A DNA stretch of 64,000 nt from Calocera cornea HHB12733. Lineage: Eukaryota; Basidiomycota; Dacrymycetes; Dacrymycetales; Dacrymycetaceae. The stretch lies in NCBI GenBank assembly GCA_001632435.1, contig KV423937.1:62001-126000 (forward strand), read 5' to 3'. The position numbers and the translations under genes are program-made. Of this stretch, positions 11,592-32,744 are shown in pieces (within the stretch, counting starts at the first letter, position 1; every line of letters starts with the position of its first letter). The notes under the pieces were generated by a model. It was not told the origin of the DNA, did not search any database, and saw only the letters and a program-made list of their open reading frames with translations.

Positions 11592-12769
11592 ATGTCGACC
11601 CCCTTCATCTGGCAATGGCCGCCAACGCACGGCTCGTGGGCTCGGAAGGTCCTCACGGACAGACGGGAGACTCACCCGCTTCTGTTCCGCCTTGAGGACG
11701 AGCACTCCCAAACGAAAGCGGACACCAGCGGGGACCATGTCGCGGGGCTGTTCGATGACGGCGCCGATGCGGAAGAAGCTTCCTTGCGCCATGCAGAAGA
11801 GGGCACGGACCCGTTTGACTTCGACACTGTCTTCCGTCATGTCAATTGGGGCTCTGAAGAATCCACACCTCTTATCTCTTGCACTGCGAGCCCTCGCTGG
11901 GCTTTCTGGGAGGGCAACAGCCGTGTCTTCCAGACAGGCCACCGTCGCACGAGGTCTCAATCCCCTCTGTTGGTCATCATCGATTCCAGCCAAGTGCGTC
12001 ATGTTGGGGATGCCTACGCCATACTCCAAAGTTCGGAGCGCGCAAAGCTTGGAAACTGGTCCGCATCCCACGGCAAGCAACTCGAAAAGTTCCGATACTG
12101 TACCAATCAAGCTCAGGAATTCCTTGTATTCGGTGTCGTCCCAAAGAAAACTGTCCTCTCGACTGTGGATATGACCAGCGAGGCGTTTTGCAAGGCCGTC
12201 GAAGATCTGTATGAGGGTATCACGTCAGATCCGGATGCGGTTCACAATTCCTTCCGAGACGCATGGACAACTCAGGTTCAGTATTGGAAGGGCGTCAGAG
12301 GTGTCAGCAGAGTGGAGCTCGGCAAGCGCGGTGCCAGACTCGCAATAGTGATGCTTCACGAGCTATGGGACAGCGACTGGGCAGAGTTCACCGAGGAGGA
12401 GATTGGGCCTGTGCTTGACGACATCGCCGGCCACACCCATGCCCTCGCGGAGCAGATACTGTTGGACATCTTTTACCTGCGGGCGCATGAGACAGAAGTC
12501 TTCGATGGATTTCACTCTTGCATCGATAGGAAGAGGGACGAATGCATGGACCAATGGCGGAAAGTACATTCTCCGCCGACGCCGGACCTCTCATTCTCCC
12601 AGAGTCCTGATAACTCCCTTGACGAGCTCAATATGGAAATTCTTACGAAGCTGTTCGAAGCCAGCCTGGACCTAAGCAAGGAGGTGCAAGCCGGAAGAAG
12701 TAAGCATGTTTAACATCTCTCGGGCAGCCGCACTAAAGATCCTTGCTAGCAATACCAGTCCCGGCTTGA
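11592..12769 (+). CDS. DUF7587-like orphan protein, possible ADP-ribosyltransferase-like fold
   Basis: The function is not known. Read without splicing, the frame ends at 12713 (373 aa). A good intron (GTAAGC...GCTAG, about 12705-12749) would replace the last residues and end at 12769. The N-terminal half shows LLFRLEDEHSQT, later TPLISCTASPRWAFWEG, then LLVIIDSSQVRHVGDAYAIL. This order (Arg strand, Ser/Thr strand with following Trp/Ala helix, Ile-Asp strand) resembles the fungal DUF7587 domain, which I recall as ART-like; I could not verify this by search. The C-terminal half is mostly helical and charged (ELWDSDWAEFTEEEIGPVLD). A short decayed relative lies at 13461. There is no signal peptide or membrane segment. 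Confidence 0.6.
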
Positions 12770-22941: not shown

Positions 22942-24603
22942 ATGTCGTGGGTGACCGACTCGAACGAGGCGCTGCATCTGCGGTTAGGTGAGCCACGTCT
23001 ATTTATCGAACACTGGACTGAATAACGAGCCCTGCATCAGTCCGGGCGCATGGCGAGGAGACACACGACGCGAGGACCGCCGATTTCCACCCCAGCTTCA
23101 CATACCCTGTGCGCAGGATCGCAGTTATTCCCGATGTCCTAGCCGCGCTGAACCTTTGACTAGATCTATGGCGAAGACGAGAAGATATTTGGATATGTGG
23201 ACCTCTATATTGCCGTATGTTGCGATAGTCCCGAGCTACGTAGGTGTGTGCTCACAGAGGTGCTTCAGCTCCACTTCGCTTCGGGCAGCTTGAAGCAGTA
23301 CTTCAAGGTCACCTCTACGAAACAACCCGCAGCGAAAGCCGATGATGTCGAGGGTGCTCTGTACAAGTTCATCCCTCCAGGTGAGTATATGCATGGTCAA
23401 TTCATCATCGGAACGCTGACACTCGTACAGACTATACCAAAGACGAAAAGAAGTTCCTCCGGCAAGTAGAGCAGGATGCCGACGACTTCAAACCAATGGG
23501 CAAGCTGATACATTCTTATACTCGGCCATCCCATGTGAACAAGGGCAAGTCCGTAAAACACGTGCCGAGGGAGGACGATGTCGTCTATGAGGTGTATCAT
23601 GTATGTGACAAGGTTACAGTGCTATGATACGCGCTCATTTTGTAGGCAACATGGGACACGCCCAACTTCCGAGACTACCACCGACATATGCAGATCTTTA
23701 TTCTGCTCTACATCGAAGGAGGATCGTACCTCGTCGAAGATGAAGAGAAGTGGGAGTTCGTTGTATCGTGCGTTCACCGACCAGCGTACTGTGTCGACTA
23801 AGTCTGACAGCCTCCCAGCTACGAGAAAACGAAAAACGCCGAGGGCAAGGAGCGATGGCACTTTGTCGGGTATTCCAGCTTGTATCCCTTCTGGTGCTGG
23901 CCGAACAACGTTCGCCTACGACTGAGGTACGTCTGTCTGACACAATTCTGATCACAATCTGACGATCGTCGTAGCCAGTTTGTCATTATCCCTCCCTACC
24001 AAGGGCAACATCATGGTTTTGAGCTGTACAACACAATCTACAAGCTAACGCGAGATTCCGTCCTCACGACGGAGCTCACGGTCGAGGATCCTAGCGAAGG
24101 GTTCGAAGACATGCGAGATAGATGTGACTTAGCGATGTTGCGGGCGAACACTGAGTTTATGGAGGGTTGGGAGCCGAAGGGCGGTGGGAAGAAGAGCTGG
24201 ACAGCACCAATCAACCGTGAATGGGAGAAGAAGTGGATGAGGGACCTGAAGCTCGCGAAGGTAAGCAAAATTGCATTCGCCATCCGTTCTCTTCGCTGAG
24301 TCCCATCTTCCGTAGCGACAATTCCAAAGGTTGACGGAGATGCTGATCCTTGACCATCTTCAACCTGGAGATCACGCCGCTGAGCGTGCGTTCCGCCTGC
24401 AGGTGAAGGAGCGCCTATACCGATTCAACTACGTGAGAGAACAACTGCATATACAGAGGACTCCGCTTACCTTCGGTTTGTAGGAGATCCTGATACAAAT
24501 GGACAAGCCCGATCGGCTAGACAAACTGGAGGAGACCTACGAGGGTGTGAAGGAGGACTACCTCCGCATCCTGGCTGGAAAGCGGAGAGATGCTCCGAAT
24601 TGA
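22942..24603 (+). CDS. HAT1: Histone acetyltransferase type B catalytic subunit HAT1
   Basis: Acetylates newly made histone H4 (K5/K12) before chromatin assembly, with a WD40 partner (Hat2/RbAp46). Ten exons join in frame: 22942-22987, 23041-23108, 23164-23214, 23269-23380, 23431-23600, 23646-23767, 23819-23926, 23975-24260, 24316-24432 and 24484-24603, giving about 399 aa. Family blocks: WVTDSNEALHLRL at the start, HPSFTYPIYGEDEKIFGYVD, YHRHMQIFILLYIEGGSYL, and HFVGYSSLYPFWCWPNNVRL. The GNAT acetyl-CoA loop FVIIPPYQGQHHG and the catalytic Glu/Asp block ELTVEDPSEGFEDMRD follow. The acetyl-CoA loop normally reads QxxGxG; here the first Gly is His (residue ~238). Divergent from the F-box gene, 206 bp between starts. 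Confidence 0.94.
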
Positions 24604-25405
24604 GCGGGCAGCTTGTTCCTCCCTTTCATTTCGGCCTTGTCGCATTTGTGCTGGCGTGACGAAGGCGGAGCGTTGTTCCCCACCGATTTCTGTTCTATGG
24701 CATCATTCATCAGGCGGACTGATCGCCTTGTATTAGCTGTGCAGGATGGTATTCGACGTTCATGACAACGAACACTGTTGCATTGGCTTAGATTATTAAG
24801 AGTGTCGGCATGGAAGCTCTTCCGAACAGACGGACTGACACAGCATATCATGTGCTCTGCCTGCAGCGTCTTCACTCGAATGATGGACTCGTCGATATTG
24901 ATGTCAAGATGAATTGTCTTCAGGTCGCATGGCCATTCTCATTTCGGAAGTGTTCTCGCGACGTCTCGTCAAGTTGGCAATGTCTGTGCAAGTCCAGGTC
25001 GGAGCCACATCTTCTTCACTCTGGTGATGTTGCGCTGTTCATGCATCTCTCGTGATGCAGCCTTCCCATTACGTTCCTCAACTACACAATACCTCTTTGA
25101 ACAGTGGGACATCGTCCTGGATGGATCGCCTCCGTTTCCAAGCGCGATGCTTCCCACGGACTTACAGCCTACAGCGAGCGACAATATATTCGCTGTCCGT
25201 ATTCCCGCGGGCAACAGCTGATGGCAGAGATGATTGCAGAGCTACTGCTCGGTGTCCATCCCGGGCTTCTGCTAGCTAGCTACAGCAGCTCGAGATGCTG
25301 ACCAGCAGCTTGCAGCCTATATAAAGGCCTGCAGAACACGTCCCAAACGAAGCAGACCACACCTCGACAACGCCCAGCAGACAGCCCATCACACAGCCGA
25401 CAACG
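24604..25405. other. Intergenic region upstream of the secreted peptide gene
   Basis: About 800 bp; no gene supported. The last 100 bp contain a TATA box and C/A-rich leader for the peptide gene. Confidence 0.45.
25318..25325 (+). promoter_or_regulatory. TATA box of the secreted peptide gene
   Basis: TATATAAA at 25318-25325, 81 bp upstream of the ATG at 25406 and followed by an A/C-rich leader. A consensus TATA box is uncommon among the genes here and points to a regulated or strongly expressed gene. Confidence 0.6.
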
Positions 25406-25774
25406 ATGCGCTTCCACCTCGCTCTCGCCACGCTCACCGCCGTCTTTGTATTCGCTTTGGCTGCTGCTGTTCCGACAGAGCACCCGGACGGCCTTTGTGG
25501 TGGGATGCCTTGCCCGGGCAAGCGGGCCGTCGACCATACAGACGGACTGTGCGGCGGGATGCCGTGCCCCGGCAAGGTCAGCCCGGATTTAGACTGTTCA
25601 GCGTAAGTAACAAGACGGGAATGCTAACGGTCTCCTAGCTCTGAACGACCGATGCAAACCTTGCACTCGCGTCAACACCGGAACGCCTGCCTATCGGACG
25701 ACCGCGCGATCGCCCGCCCGGCGAACGAGCGAGAGGCCGGGGAACAAAGTATGCAGAGCCTCAACCACATGTAA
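25406..25774 (+). CDS. Secreted Kex2-type repeat peptide precursor, undescribed
   Basis: Small precursor with a clear signal peptide (MRFHLALATLTAVFVFALAA). Two identical cores DGLCGGMPCPGK follow, coded at 25487-25522 and 25541-25576. The first core is followed by Arg, making Lys-Arg, a Kex2 site; the cores are separated by RAVDHT. Six of twelve codons differ between the copies and every difference is silent, showing selection on the peptide. Unspliced, the frame ends DLDCSA at 25606 (66 aa). A GTAAGT...CTAG intron (25604-25639) with a good branch site would extend it to 25774. No CaaX box, so it is not a classical basidiomycete lipopeptide pheromone. Each core has two Cys that could form a disulfide or bind metal. 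No family recognised; function unknown. Confidence 0.75.
25487..25576 (+). repeat. Coding direct repeat, two 36-bp peptide cores
   Basis: Two 36-bp units, start to start 54 bp, encoding the same 12 residues. Substitutions fall only at third positions of the Gly, Leu, Cys, Gly, Pro and Pro codons. The unit is therefore 54 bp including the linker with the dibasic site. Confidence 0.9.
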
Positions 25775-25807: not shown

Positions 25808-28280
25808 TCAGCGCTTCCTCATATCCCTCACGCTCAGATAGAGCATATCCCCGTCCTCCAAGTTATAGCTCGCCATCGTCTGCGCGTTCGTGAGCGTCTT
25901 GCCCTGGAAGGTGAGCCTGATCCTGCCGACGGGGCAGGTCGAGTCCAAGAGCTGGACGATCCTGTCCCTGAGGGTGCTGACGAGGAGCGTGAGGGGCAGC
26001 TCGGGCACCTCGGCGACCTTGCCGTCAAAGTGCCAGCCGGGGTTGTCCTCGGCGTTGGGGAGCTGCACCTGGATGCTGATGGGCTCGGGGTGCATGGCGA
26101 GCCAGTCGGCCTCGCTGTACGTGTGCCCGTCGTACCGCTCGATCCGCTGGCGCTTCGCGGGCGGCTGCTCAGCCTCGGGCGGCGTGGCGGCTTCGTCGGG
26201 CGTGGGCGTGGCGGACCCGCCGGGCGTGGCGGAGAGCGCGGCGAGCCGGCTCGGGTGCATGCCGGGCGGGGCGAACCCTGCGGGCGGGGCAGGCGCGGGC
26301 GTGAAGCTGCCTACGCTCGCCCCGGGCCCGCCGTACACGGGCGCGGTCGCGGGCTGGGGCGCAGCTGAGACAACCGCGTTGGCGTACTCCGGGAGGGCGG
26401 GGGCGTTGAGCGCCGCGGGCGCGGGGGTGATGCCCGGCCCGAGCGCAGGGCCGATGGAGGGCACGGACGAGTCGGCCATGACGCCCAGGCCCTTGGAGCG
26501 GTGGATGGCCGCGATCTGCTCCTCGAAGTTGACGTTGCTCTGGAACTTGCCCGCGGTGCTCTCCTTGGAGGCGGTATGCCCGTCCCAGACGATCTTCTCC
26601 CTCTCCCTCGCGCGGGCCTTCTCCGCCTCCTCCTCGGCGCGGCGGGCGACCTCGTCCTCCGCCGCGCCGAAGATATCGACGCGTGTGCGGGCGAGGGTGC
26701 GGAGGGACGAGGCGACGTTTGCGCCGAACTGGAGCTCGTTCGCCTGCGCGCGCCGCTGCTCCAGCACGTCCCGCTGCGACTTCCAGCGCGGGTCGAGCAG
26801 CTCGATGCGCATGTGCTCCTCCAGCTCGTCGATCGGGATCTGCTGCCCGCAGATCGTGCACGTCGTCGTCGCTTTCTTGGCCCCGCGCTGGATGCCTGCA
26901 ACGCCGTCATATCATCAGCGTATGGCCACATCAGAGAGCCAGAACAGGGAGAGGAGACGCACCTCGGGGAACGTAGTTCTCGCGGATCTTCATCTGCCCG
27001 CCAGGCAGCTGCACCTGGGCCATCGCCTCCCTCCTGAGCCTGTCCGCCTCCTCCTGGGCCAAGCTCGCCGCGGCATCCTCCATGCTCGCATCCTCCCCCT
27101 TGTCGGCCGCCCCGACCTCCGGCAGCTTCCGCTTGACGCCCGCGACGGCCTCGGCCCTGTCCGCGCGGCCCTGCTCCTCCCTCGCCCTGGTCTCCTCCAC
27201 CGCCGCGCGGTTGCGCACGTCCGCAGCCTCGTTCGCAGCCTTGATCTCCTCCGTCGTGCTCTCGTTGATCATCCTGGCCATGCGCTTCTGGGCAAGCGTC
27301 ATGCTCTCGACGTCCTGCACGCTCATGGGCGGAGGCAGCTCGGCGGCCGCGTCGGCAGGGGTGAACTCGATCGTCTGCACAACGGCGTAGTCGTGCCAGT
27401 CAATCTCGGCGAACGCCTTGCGCTCCGCCTCCTGGTCCTCGGCCCGCTTCTTCTCCCGGTCGCGCTTCCACCGCTCCCAGTCCGCCCGCGCCCGGCTCTC
27501 CTCAAGCAGCCTCGCTTTGCCCGCGGGACCCGCATCGGCCCGCAGCTTCTCCCTCGCGTCGCCCGTCGGCAGGAGCACGGTCTTGTACTGGCTGACGAGG
27601 CGGGAGAAGTAGCCGAACAGCGGGTGCGTCGGGCGGAGGAACTCGAACTCGGGGTTCTGGCCCTCGCGCACGCTCAGCGCCTGCAGGAAGCCCGCTCCGC
27701 GCACGGCGAAGAAGAGCGCGGTGAGCTTGATCGTGTCCACCTCGAGCGGGGAAGTGCGCGGCGTGGGGAGGACAAACTCGAGCTCGGGCGGCTCGGGCGG
27801 CGCGGCCCTGTGCCGGCCCGTGGGCTTCTTCGTCGTCGCCGCGTCAGCTTCAGCCTCGCCCTCCCCTCCCGCGCCTGCGCCCGCGCCCTCCCCCGCAGCA
27901 GCACCAGGAGCAGGAGAAGGCCGGACGGCGGCGCCCGTATCGGCGTTGACAGCCTCGCCGGCGCGGATGGACTCGACGCGGAGGCGGTAGTACGGGTGGT
28001 AGGCGTCGAGCGGGGCGAGGAAGGCGAACTTTGGGTCGGTGCGCTGGGACTCGCGCACGCGCTCCTCGAACTGCGTCGGGTTCTGCGAGCGCGCGACGTG
28101 CAGCGCCGTACGGTCGATTATTGCTGGAGGAGGGTGGGGGAGGGCGGTCAGCGTGGGGTCGATGGAGAGTGGAAAGGGAGGGCAGGGGGAGGGGGAGGGG
28201 ACGCACTCCTGATGTCGGGCGGGGGGTAGATCATCCCCGTGGCGTACTTGGGCGCGTCGTCGGGGGCGGGGGCAGGGGCA

Positions 28281-28312
<32 letters not shown>

Positions 28313-28372
28313 GGCAGAGTGCCCGTTCAGGCCGTTCGTGCCCGGCGCGGGGGCCATCTCGACGTGTGCCAT
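25808..28372 (-). CDS. SF3A1: Splicing factor 3A subunit 1 (SF3a120/Prp21)
   Basis: Subunit of SF3a, required for mature U2 snRNP and prespliceosome assembly; nuclear. Start at 28372 (MAHVEMAPAPGTNGLNG). Introns lie near 28105-28205 and 26895-26965. Domains in order: a PT-repeat N-terminus; SURP1 (AIIDRTALHVARSQNPTQFE, then FLAPLDAYHPYYRLRV); SURP2 (DTIKLTALFFAVRGAGFLQA to HPLFGYFSRLVSQYKTV); a charged region; the Prp21 core with a CTICGQQIPIDELEEHMRIE zinc-finger-like motif and LLDPRWKSQRDVL; and a C-terminal ubiquitin-like domain (LTFQGKTLTNAQTMASYNLE) ending RDMRKR. This full order is diagnostic. Alanine/proline-rich inserts make it longer than the yeast protein. Divergent from the ABCG gene, 348 bp between starts. 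Confidence 0.95.
28280..28315. repeat. Coding hexamer repeat (Pro-Thr)n
   Basis: Tandem GGTGTC hexamers in the 5' coding region of SF3A1 encode alternating Thr-Pro residues (PTPTPTPTPTP). A length-variable microsatellite is expected here; it does not disturb the frame. Confidence 0.75.
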
Positions 28373-28720
28373 CCTTGCTGGCTGGGGGTGGTGGTGGGCG
28401 GGGTGTGGTCGATCGCAGCAAAGTGCGGTCTGAAAGTGAGCGGCACGGACGCAACCCTCCCGGAAGCATCTCTCATTCTCATTCAGGGACCGGTCGCCTG
28501 TCGCGGGTCGGGGTGGGGCGACGCAGCGCCTTGCGTCTGCACAGGTCAAGAGCAGGCAAGAAGGAACAGGCCATCGGCCTGGTGGGTTATTCAGGGCGAC
28601 GACGACTGGGGCGAGCGTTGGTTGATCCCCTCCTGCCTTCCTGCCCTCCTCCCTCAGCCCTCTCTGCGGTCCTCCTGTGTGTCTCTGCTGGAACGGCTGT
28701 GATCGGCCGACACCGTGACG

Positions 28721-31700
28721 ATGCTCGCCTTGCTGCTGCTCTCCGCTCTGCTGCTCGCGCCACTGCGCTCCCGCCCGCTCCTGCCCACCGCCCTCGCCCA
28801 GCAATGCGAGCAGTACGCGCTGCCGCTCACCCCGAGCACGTGCCTCTGCCCCCCAGGCTTCTCGGGCCCGACGTGCTCCCTCCCCGCCTGCTCCGGCAAC
28901 CTCTTCCAGGGCACCGCCCGCCCCGCCGCCCAGCCCCTAACCGCCCAGGGACAGCCATACAGCAACCTCACCGCCTCCTCCTGCGCCTGCGAGCCGGGCT
29001 GGGCAGGCGAGGGATGCAACGTCTGCCGCACCAGCTCCGTCTGCCAGAACGACTTCTGGGCCAGCTCATTCAACACCACTATCGCCGGCGGCTCCAGCGG
29101 CGTCGACCTCACCGGCGTCACCCCCGACCAGACGGGAAACCAGAGCGTCGTGTGCAACACGGACAGCAGGGTGTATGCGGCCGGCGAGCTCAGCTGCGAC
29201 GTCAATGTGCGCATTCCCATCCACTCACCATTCTCATTGCATCGTATGCTAACCGCACCCCGGCAGAACCCGACGCTGCAATCGCTCTTCCCGCTCCAGT
29301 CGACGCTGACGATCCTGCGCATCCTCACCCCGTCCCTCACCCCCTACCCGAACGTCTCCGCCCTCCCCTTCCCAAACAGCACCATCCTCGCCCAGCTCTG
29401 GTACGCCGGCGTCGAGCAGTTCTTCTGCTCCGCCTCCTCCTGCACCCAGGCGCTCGACACCGCCGGCGCAGGCTCCAGCGACTGGCAGTGCACCGACCTG
29501 CAGTGCACGTGCCGCCCCGGCGCGGACTTCTGCGGGGCCGTCCCCGCACTCAACCTCACCAGCACCATCGACACCCTCTCCGGCACGCTCGAGATCTCCT
29601 GCGACGCCGTCAACGCGAGCTCAAGCACCGGCACAGCATGCGCGTTCAAGCAGAGCGTGCTGGAGCAGCTGTTTGGCGCGGGCGGGCTCAGCATGCAGAA
29701 CTGCGTGTTTGGCGAGTGCGTCCGGCAGGGCGTCATCGACGACGCGCTGGGCAACACCAACAGCACCGCTGCCTCCTCCTCCTCCTCGGCAGGGCTGAGC
29801 GGAGGCGTCATCGCCGGCCTCGCAGTGGTCGGCGCCTTCGTCCTCGCCGCGCTGCTCCTGCTGGCCTGGGGCCTCTGGGACCAGCACCGAGCGCGCTCGG
29901 GCGCCTCGGGCCTGTCCGAAGCCGCCGCAGCGCTCGAGAAGCCCCCCGGGGGCATCGGGCTCGAGTGGCACGACCTCTCCTACGCCGTCTCCCTGCGCTC
30001 GGGGCTCGGCACGCTCCTGCGCGGGCGGAGCAAGCCCCTGTACCCGGAGGACGGCGCCGCCTCCGCCGCGGAGGAGCTCGACAGCCAGGGGGCAAAGCTC
30101 ATCCTCCGCGGCGTCTCGGGCCGCGTCGCGCCGGGCACGATGGTCGCCATCCTCGGCCCGTCCGGCGCGGGCAAGACCACCGTCGTCGAGCTCCTCGCGG
30201 GGAAGCGGAAGGAGGGCCGCGCCACGGGCGACGTGCGCTACTTCTCCGGCGCGGACGGCGCCCCCCTCCCGCGCGTGCCCAGGGTCGGCTTCGTCGACCA
30301 GAGCGACGTCCTCCCCGCCAACCTCACCGTCAGGGAGACGCTGCTCTTCGCCGCGCGGCTCCGCCTTCCCGAGACGACGCCGGCGGCGGACAAGCAGGCG
30401 CGCGTGTTCGAGGTGCTCAACCAGCTCGGCCTGGCCCACGTCGCCGACACGCGCATCGGCTCGGGCGAGCGCCGCGGCATCTCCGGCGGGGAGATGCGGC
30501 GGGTGAGCATCGGCTGCGAGCTCGTCGCCCGCCCCGCCGTGCTCATCCTCGACGAGCCGACGAGCGGGCTCGACAGCGTCTCGGCGCACAAGGTCGCCAG
30601 CGTGCTCCGCGCGCTCTGCCACGACCCGGCAAACCCCACCGTCGTCCTCGCCTCCATCCACCAGCCCAGCAGCAGGCTCTACCAGACATTCGACAAGGTC
30701 ATGCTCCTCTCGGCCGGCAGCACCCTCTACTTTGGAGACGGCGGAGCCGCTCCCGCAGAGTACTTTGCACAGCGCGGGAGGCCCTGCGCACAGGGCTACA
30801 ATGTCGCCGACCACCTGCTGGATATCGCTTCCGACCCGTCGAGCTCGGCCCTCGCGCTCGCCCCAGCTGCAGCTGGAGCGCAGAACGGCGCCAACGGGGG
30901 GAACGGCGCGCTCCGGCACACGCCGAGCGAGGAGGCAGAGAAGGACCTCTCCGCGCCCTCGCACCCGACGTTCGAGAGCGAGCACGCGCCGCTGGGCGTC
31001 CCCGGTGCCCCCTCCCCAGGCGCGGGGCTCAAGCGCGGCCGCATGCGCACCAGCGGCCGGTACGCCGCGACGTTCCTCACGCAGCTGCAGGTGCTCTCGG
31101 GCAGGGAGTGGAAGAACCTCTGCAGGGACCTCTCCCTCTTCGCTGCCCACCTCGCCGTCGCCATCGTCCTCGGCGTCTTCACGGGCGGGCTGTACTACAA
31201 GACGGGCATCACGATCGCGGGCTTCCAGAGCCGGATCGGCTGTCTCTTCTTCCTCGTGCGTCTTCCCACCTCCCTCTCCCTCCCATGCCTCGACCCGTTG
31301 CTAACGCTATCCGCTGCAGGGCTCGCTGCTCAGCTTCTCCGCGCTCTCGGCCCTGCACAACCTCACCGTCATCCGCCCGCTCTTCCTGCGCGAGCGCGCA
31401 GGCGGGTACTACAGCCCCACTGCCTGGCTCCTCTCCCGCGTCATCTGGGACGTCATCCCCCTCCGCATCGTCCCCACCATATTCGTATCGACGATCACGT
31501 ACTGGATGGCGGGGCTCAGTCCCGAGCCGGCAAACTTCTTCAAGTTCCTCCTCATCCTCATCCTCTACGCGCTCGTCTTGACCCTCTTCGTGAGCTCGAG
31601 TTCCTCCCCGCGCGAGCGAACGCGACCGTACTGACACGCTTACCAGAACTTCTTCTACGCCGCCATCTTCTCCAACGGCGGTATCGCCATCCTCCTCTCG

Positions 31701-32084
31701 GCGCTGTTCAACCTCGCCCAGATGACCTTCGCCGGCTTCTTCGTCCACCTCGACACGATCCCGCCCGTGCTCCGCTGGCTGCAGTGGCTCTGCCCGCTCA
31801 AGTACACCCTCGAGGCGCTCAGCGTGAACGAGGTCAATTCCGGCCTCATGATCGAGGACACGCTCTCGGGCGTGCCCGTCGACGTCTCCGCCCAGCTGAT
31901 CATGAACCTGGCAAGTCGTCCCTTTCGCTTACGCGCGTAGAATGCGACGCTGATACATGCGTAGCTGTTCGGCTTCGGGGACAACAACTACTATCGGGAC
32001 GTGCTCGTCCTCTTCGCCTTCATCGCCGGCTTCGGCATCGCCCTCATCGGTGCCGTCTGGTTCAGGCTGCGCGAGACGCGTTGA
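28721..32084 (+). CDS. ADP1: ABCG-family transporter with EGF-like ectodomain, ADP1 type
   Basis: Putative half-size ABC transporter of the ABCG (White/PDR-like) family, matching yeast Adp1 in architecture; the substrate is unknown. Exons: 28721-29206, 29267-31255, 31320-31589, 31647-31910 and 31965-32084, about 1042 aa. A signal peptide is followed by Cys-rich EGF-like units (STCLCPPGFSGPTCS; SSCACEPGWAGEGCNVC) and Asn-glycosylation motifs. A first TM (GGVIAGLAVVGAFVLAALLL) comes next. The ATPase has Walker A GPSGAGKT, signature SGGEMRRVSIG and Walker B VLILDEPTSGLDS. The ABC2 membrane domain ends VWFRLRETR. The last intron (31911-31964) is GC-AG (donor GCAAGT), required to keep MNL joined to LFGFGDNNYYRDV. 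Confidence 0.93.
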
Positions 32085-32744
32085 ACGCGCGCCTACGCGG
32101 CGCGAGGCGAAATCAACGCGCATTTCCGCCGGCTCGACATATGGCCTGTTTGGGATTTAATGACATTTTGTTGCGTGTTTCACGGCACTGTTATATACCG
32201 GCTTGACCTCCTATGCAGTTAGTAGATGTACTTTTTACAATGGGATTTTGGTTTACAACAATTCACAACCCTCCGACCCAACTAGCTCAAGAATGCGCGT
32301 TTGTAAGAACATCCGGCATATCTATGCGACTTCTACGTGTGTATGCCCGCCCAGATATGCGACAATATGCCATGGTTGCAGAGATATGCGCCCATATGCA
32401 CGTTTGGTGCACATCTTTTCGCCTTCCGTGCGCCTACCATGCGCGTTGTTTCGCCTACCGTGCGCGGAACGTTCAAAGACGCGGAATCGGACCCGCGTAA
32501 GAACAAAAGGGCGGAACAAGCACACACCAGGGCCTCGGGCAAAGAAGCTCAGGTGTGCTTCTTTTTACACCTCAATCTTCTGACAGCCTCTGACTTCTCT
32601 ATACAATGCAGTTGATGTCCTGTTATTGGACAGTTTTCCTCCGTTTACGCCCGCATAACCCCCTTGACCCCTGTCGTCCACGTCCTCTCCCCTCCAGCCC
32701 CTCAATACCTCTGTGTCATTCCCCCTCTGTGCCTCAACCTCAAG
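32085..32744. other. Lower-GC intergenic island with ATATGC repeats
   Basis: About 660 bp, distinctly richer in A/T than its neighbours. Between 32310 and 32410 the motifs ATATGCG, ATATGCC and CATATG recur many times. A short hairpin (AAGCACACACC at about 32519 with GGTGTGCTT at about 32552) is followed by a T run. No gene seen; the composition resembles relics of a transposable element but no terminal repeats could be established. Confidence 0.4.

Follow-up and report, generated by a model that had tools for sequence, protein, structure and literature searches.

The locus examined here raises the question of whether a short open reading frame (ORF) of Calocera cornea encodes a secreted precursor in which a repeated 12-residue core is maintained by selection, and which peptides such a precursor would release. 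The ORF was studied within a window of 64 kb, this term denoting the whole stretch of DNA that was analysed, and the coordinates of its parts and of the neighbouring genes are collected in Table 1.

Precursor structure and gene model

The single-exon ORF translates as MRFHLALATLTAVFVFALAAAVPTEHPDGLCGGMPCPGKRAVDHTDGLCGGMPCPGKVSPDLDCSA*. As described in the first-pass annotation, it combines a signal-like N-terminus with two identical DGLCGGMPCPGK blocks. Residues 5 to 21 are strongly hydrophobic (mean Kyte-Doolittle value of 2.4) and small residues at positions -3 and -1 close the hydrophobic stretch, a pattern that corresponds to the signal-peptide rule. The two 12-residue cores are offset by 54 nt. 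The Arg reported directly after core 1 does complete a Lys-Arg pair, which is followed by AVDH; core 2 ends in Lys57-Val58, and there is no dibasic site before core 1 or after core 2. The precursor contains a total of five Cys, the last of which is third from the end (DCSA), in agreement with the reported lack of a CaaX box. The TATA box that had been claimed was likewise found. Its motif, TATATAAA, occurs on the forward strand of the window only at 25318, and four times on the forward strand and never on the reverse strand in 264 kb of the contig.

Table 1. Positions, in window coordinates, of the parts of the precursor gene and of neighbouring genes.
Feature	Position	Strand	Remarks
Precursor ORF, 66 aa, single-exon model	25406-25606	+	stop TAA at 25604-25606; TATA box upstream; best codon score
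Signal-peptide-like N-terminus, residues 1-21	25406-25468	+	Ala at -3 and -1
Core 1, DGLCGGMPCPGK	25487-25522	+	
Lys39-Arg40, sole dibasic (Kex2-type) site of the ORF	25520-25525	+	directly after core 1
Core 2, DGLCGGMPCPGK	25541-25576	+	differs silently from core 1 in six codons
C-terminal tail VSPDLDCSA	25577-25603	+	fifth Cys, codon 25595-25597; no CaaX
TATA box TATATAAAGG	25318-25327	+	88 bp before the ATG
Proposed intron, ends corrected	25603-25638	+	GTAAGT ... CTAAC ... TAG, 36 nt; doubtful
HAT1-like histone acetyltransferase, upstream neighbour	23164-24603	+	Hat1_N in 23164-23466; last exon placed by eye
SF3A1 (Prp21), downstream convergent neighbour	25808-28469	-	PRP21_like_P, Surp, ubiquitin; two ORF pieces
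ABC transporter	28718-32203	+	ABC_tran, ABC2_membrane; about 3 kb downstream of the precursor ORF
ORF with DUF7587 domain	11592-12710		E = 1.3e-19

The position of the 3' end of the gene depends on an intron that had been placed at 25604-25639, extending the gene to 25774. Both ends of this intron were one position too high (GT lies at 25603 and AG at 25637-25638), and the intron itself is doubtful, as is the end at 25774. Donor-branch-acceptor pairs were surveyed across 264 kb of the contig and compared with the reversed sequence. Pairs with GTRNG donors exceeded this control at approximately 45 to 62 nt, with a peak at 50 nt, and numbered 73 compared to 78 in the control at 30 to 44 nt. Because the proposed 36-nt intron is shorter than the introns typical of the genome, the gene appears to end at 25606 rather than at 25774.

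The codon score of the tail at 25640-25771 speaks for the spliced form, reaching -0.27 per codon in the spliced frame compared to -0.50 and -0.47 in the other two frames and exceeding the 95th percentile (-0.39) of upstream intergenic DNA. An equally high score is found in 17% of dinucleotide shuffles of this tail, and its frame is open in 31% of them. The codon score of the whole 66-residue ORF is the highest among the six frames and is matched by 3% of dinucleotide shuffles; the mature part alone carries no codon-bias signal, with 36.5% of shuffles scoring as high and a score under the 5th percentile of the training genes. The spliced form has 110 residues and ends in NHM, and its first 66 residues are identical to those of the single-exon form. 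Overall, the single-exon form is more likely than the spliced form, although not certain. A different splice at 25577 (GTCAGC, 62 nt, giving a protein that ends in PGKL) was rejected; GTCAG donors formed 15 pairs at 48 to 65 nt, compared to 15 in the control. Donors of the GTY type were slightly above control in most length bins (for example, 110 versus 79 at 36 to 41 nt), and this slight excess, short pairs included, was read as an effect of composition.

Silent divergence between the two cores

The first-pass annotation had noted that half of the codons differ between the cores and that every change is silent, and the codon comparison agrees (6 of 12 codons differ, compared to 0 of 12 residues). 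The same nucleotide differences, translated in any of the five remaining frames, produce three to six residue changes. When substitutions are placed on distinct sites of the 36 nt with transition weights of 1 to 4, the probability that all six are silent is approximately 5e-5 to 1.4e-4. At the same 54-nt period, 10 of 12 flanking residues differ compared to none of 12 in the core (Fisher p = 6.7e-5, assuming that the flanks were duplicated along with the core). The repeated peptide therefore looks constrained.

The rarity of this pattern was assessed in the surrounding 264 kb. Across six frames, 188 identical 12-mer pairs (95 on the forward and 93 on the reverse strand) were counted in the same frame, 12 to 120 residues apart and with no stop between them; Gly or Pro runs aside, no pair other than that of DGLCGGMPCPGK reaches five silent codon differences. 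The same sequence contains 3061 ATG-to-stop frames of 40 to 300 aa, nested starts being counted apart. A crude signal-peptide filter retained 103 of these frames, among which this ORF alone contains an exact repeat of eight or more residues. From one pair of repeats in one genome, these observations may fairly be taken to suggest that the 12-residue motif is under selection. In addition, selection against DNA identity between the repeats could add to the number of silent changes.

Search for relatives

Homologs of the 66-residue and 110-residue forms were sought among 5.77 billion proteins, where only the gene's own record was found (from 1 and 9 candidates, respectively). As a control in the same database, the neighbouring SF3A1 exon, scored against the 7993 candidates with the most shared words, matched 102 proteins at E <= 1e-10. 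These homologs carry the name splicing factor 3A subunit 1, and the named matches include Phlebia, Lanmaoa, Dentipellis and Meripilus. Among the scored candidates, the best full-length identity was 49%, with partial values of up to 84% over 15% of the length. With full-length identity not exceeding 49%, a very close relative is not apparent in the protein database. The relatives of SF3A1 point towards Agaricomycetes, and a 5.8S rRNA search of the assembly gave no match. The missing peptide homolog is weak evidence of true orphanhood, since small genes are often unannotated and the fungal genomic DNA searched was the species' own assembly only.

Within that assembly, no second copy of the gene was found by protein or pattern searches. 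Apart from the gene, the protein search of the genome returned a single weak match, which had E = 0.16, was 35% identical over 46 residues and contained an internal stop. With up to two mismatches, the core pattern matched the two cores and three other places, compared to three matches for the reversed-pattern control. CGGxPCxG matched nine places (the two cores and seven others) versus two in the control, and PCPGK[K/R] matched four (one of them the gene itself) versus one. Read unspliced in the matching frame, none of the places outside the gene that these three patterns matched was a short signal-plus-repeat ORF. Two loci on contigs C182 and C274 (L054 and L056, in each around base 1500 of the locus) carry the same 78-residue frame, MRAVNLGCGGGPCGG..., a piece that is duplicated in the genome and, as far as seen, unrelated to the peptide gene.

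In prokaryote genomes, the core pattern without its Lys codon gave 20 matches at 17 loci, none of which resembles the gene when read in frame for about 25 residues on each side. A Micromonospora contig (L019, 6842-6987) contains four core-pattern matches within a short DNA-level repeat, a chance occurrence with respect to the peptide gene. In viral contigs, neither the core pattern with its Lys codon nor SF3A1 was matched. The best Pfam match of the 66-residue form had E = 9.8 (5.9 bits compared to a cut-off of 22), and the 110-residue form had none. A PDB sequence search returned chance matches only (best E = 0.16), and no Rfam families or tRNAs were found in the window. The strings CGGMPCPG, GGMPCPGK and DGLCGG occur in none of the full texts of 5.39 million papers, a search that covers main texts, lists of KEX2-processed repeat proteins (KEPs) being placed in supplementary tables. 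Judged by titles and the opening of abstracts, keyword searches of the literature brought up no report of such a gene.

Genomic neighbourhood

Besides the genes listed in Table 1, an EF3-like protein is encoded far upstream of the peptide gene. No peptide-modifying enzyme was identified by Pfam among 23 nearby reading frames, some of them overlapping and together amounting to a partial annotation. A single UstYa (DUF3328) match was found in the genome, on contig C16; the window lies on C24. Both results are consistent with the earlier statement that the gene has no cluster of modifying enzymes nearby.

Comparison with known peptide systems

KEPs of fungi are the nearest known kind. The precursor resembles them in its putative signal peptide, its short cores of the common 9 to 24-residue class and its dibasic site between repeats, but differs from them in having two cores and one site only. 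Umemura's definition of a KEP calls for three or more tandem repeats, each 8 aa or longer, between Kex2 sites (PMC7329392). In the screen of Le Marquer (2019), a candidate needs four or more fragments and no fewer than three repetitions (PMC6339444), and in that of Vogt it needs two or more cleavage sites together with similarity to two or more further fragments (PMC9769878). The gene lies outside the published definition; judged by its sequence it may act like a KEP, and it is not filed as one because its two repeats and one Lys-Arg are below the published thresholds. Automated screens would miss a two-core gene because they require three or more repeats or two or more cleavage sites. A second screen in the Vogt study was visual and restricted to C. 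cinerea (PMC9769878), and this approach might have caught such a gene. Since stand-alone (orphan) KEPs are common (2560 of 7878; Umemura 2020, PMC7329392), an orphan peptide precursor is unsurprising as such.

Alpha-pheromone-like KEPs of Basidiomycota, such as QSWGGCGGRGTPCW of Trichosporon oleaginosus (PMC6339444), share with the core two Cys, CGG and PC, a likeness judged by eye. The Trichosporon peptide has six residues between its Cys (PMC6339444) compared to four in the core, which has no Trp; the precursor has no repeated Ste13 dipeptides and only two cores. An alpha-type pheromone-like precursor was rejected on the absence of Ste13 X-Ala/X-Pro dipeptides, the residues after Lys-Arg being AVDH.

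Dikaritin (ustiloxin-type) RiPP precursors have a signal peptide, as is probable here, and a Kex2-type site, but the core found here has no aromatic residue. This identity was rejected as well, the one UstYa match found in the genome being on another contig. The mating pheromone precursors of basidiomycetes are farnesylated and carry a CaaX box. They are alike in being short ORFs with a Cys near the C-terminus and unlike in that the present precursor has a signal-like N-terminus; they were set aside on the C-terminus, which has no CaaX in the single-exon or the spliced form.

Proposed processing and role

The best explanation, to which we give about an even chance, is that the locus is a perhaps lineage-specific gene for a KEP-like secreted precursor of two peptides sharing one disulphide loop. 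In the ER, which the precursor is predicted to enter, the two Cys of each CGGMPC block would be joined in a small Cys-x4-Cys disulphide loop (Cys31-Cys36 and Cys49-Cys54). Cleavage by Kex2 in the Golgi would follow Lys39-Arg40, the basic ends then being trimmed by a Kex1-type carboxypeptidase. The predicted secreted products, approximately VPTEHPDGLCGGMPCPG (17 residues) and AVDHTDGLCGGMPCPGKVSPDLDCSA (26 residues), would both contain the constrained loop. With one disulphide, their monoisotopic masses were calculated as 1663.679 and 2542.060, respectively, compared to 1003.356 for the core lacking its Lys. The release of two equal 12-residue peptides, as originally proposed, is not what a single dibasic site predicts; equal 12-mers would need extra cuts because dibasic sites for them are absent, although mushroom KEPs expressed in Pichia are reported to give products cut after a single Arg or ending in Lys (PMC9769878). 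The broader proposal, in which a precursor of the secreted type has a Kex2-type site and a duplicated core under constraint, does appear supported. The genome (32.1 Mb, 302 contigs) encodes a kexin, identified through a P-domain match, and a 208-residue piece of it matches residues 247-438 of the solved Kexin at 1.5e-46. Exon-wise searches of the genome, whose counts are lower bounds, gave one P-domain match, four DPPIV_N (dipeptidyl-peptidase) matches and 37 S10 carboxypeptidase exon matches. The single P-domain match compares with the three kex2 genes that the Vogt study mentions for C. cinerea and other agaricomycetes (PMC9769878).

Several points count against this explanation, namely the single dibasic site, the presence of only two copies, the Lys-Val after core 2, the lack of a Ste13-type X-Ala/X-Pro repeat after Lys-Arg, the absence of codon signal in the mature part and the absence of any homolog in the searches. 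In a single-sequence AlphaFold2 model of the precursor (mean pLDDT 61, pTM 0.32), a helix spans residues 2-21, with mean pLDDT values of 81-84 for residues 1-20, and values are low after the signal-like N-terminus (blocks of 41-59). The same short EE--EE pattern appears at both cores (residues 30-35 and 48-53, pLDDT about 49-59). This pattern might fit a hairpin with a Gly-Gly turn beside the two Cys, although the model is too weak to serve as evidence.

If the peptides are released, communication with other cells or organisms would be their likeliest use. According to the Vogt study (PMC9769878), KEP functions are largely unknown, axenic cultures of six C. cinerea kep knock-outs showed no apparent phenotype, and KEPs are proposed to act in biotic interactions; by analogy, such a role may be extended to the present peptides with low confidence. 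The same paper reports that mass spectrometry has detected KEP peptides in Agaricomycetes (Vogt 2022, PMC9769878).

Alternative explanations

There are several potential alternatives to the release of two peptides. The product may be an uncut small secreted cysteine-rich protein of approximately 45 residues with five Cys, in which the two blocks represent a structural or thiol motif that was duplicated and Lys39-Arg40 is incidental. While the single dibasic site, with none after core 2, and the hairpin-like pattern shared by both cores in the model would suit such a protein, its Cys number would be odd, the sequence diverges sharply outside the cores, model confidence is low past the signal-like N-terminus and the Lys-Arg sits exactly after core 1; we regard this alternative as possible but doubtful. 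It is quite improbable that the gene is non-working, that is, a decayed or never translated ORF with the repeat as a relic. Silent-only divergence would have a probability of about 1e-4 without constraint, the TATA box is well placed and the signal-like N-terminus is in the same frame, although the orphan status of the ORF (0 homologs among approximately 5.8 billion proteins) and the missing codon signal of its mature part are what a non-working gene would be expected to show.

Metal binding had also been suggested in the first-pass annotation, and the two Cys pairs could represent two Cys-x4-Cys sites of a secreted peptide binding, for example, copper. The tetramer GCTG/CAGC is seen in copper elements, and it occurs 14 times in the 250 bp before the ATG (25156-25405) compared to a contig mean of 3.5; however, this test was chosen after looking, and approximately 0.15% of 250-bp windows reach 14. 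No copper-element consensus was found in 25156-25405, and TCY4-6GCTG is absent from the 803 bp upstream. The ACE1 consensus used in the search is yeast-type, and within these 803 bp it occurs only at 24645, approximately 760 bp upstream of the ATG. In addition, the Cys density is not metallothionein-like. The upstream sequence thus argues against the suggestion, and we consider a metal-binding peptide very improbable.

Implications

A wider proposal, which we consider unlikely, is that the gene is a first example of an overlooked class in Agaricomycetes, consisting of minimal two-core precursors with a single Kex2 site that give rise to small disulphide-loop signalling peptides, the core in this case being held by selection. 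Published KEP screens of the automated kind ask for a minimum of three repeats, which could explain why such a class has escaped notice. In fungal secretomes, small orphan peptides are poorly mapped. If the gene is real, two-core precursors that are invisible to automated KEP screens can carry strongly selected peptides, and silent-only divergence between cores would provide a homolog-free way to find such precursors in any single genome.
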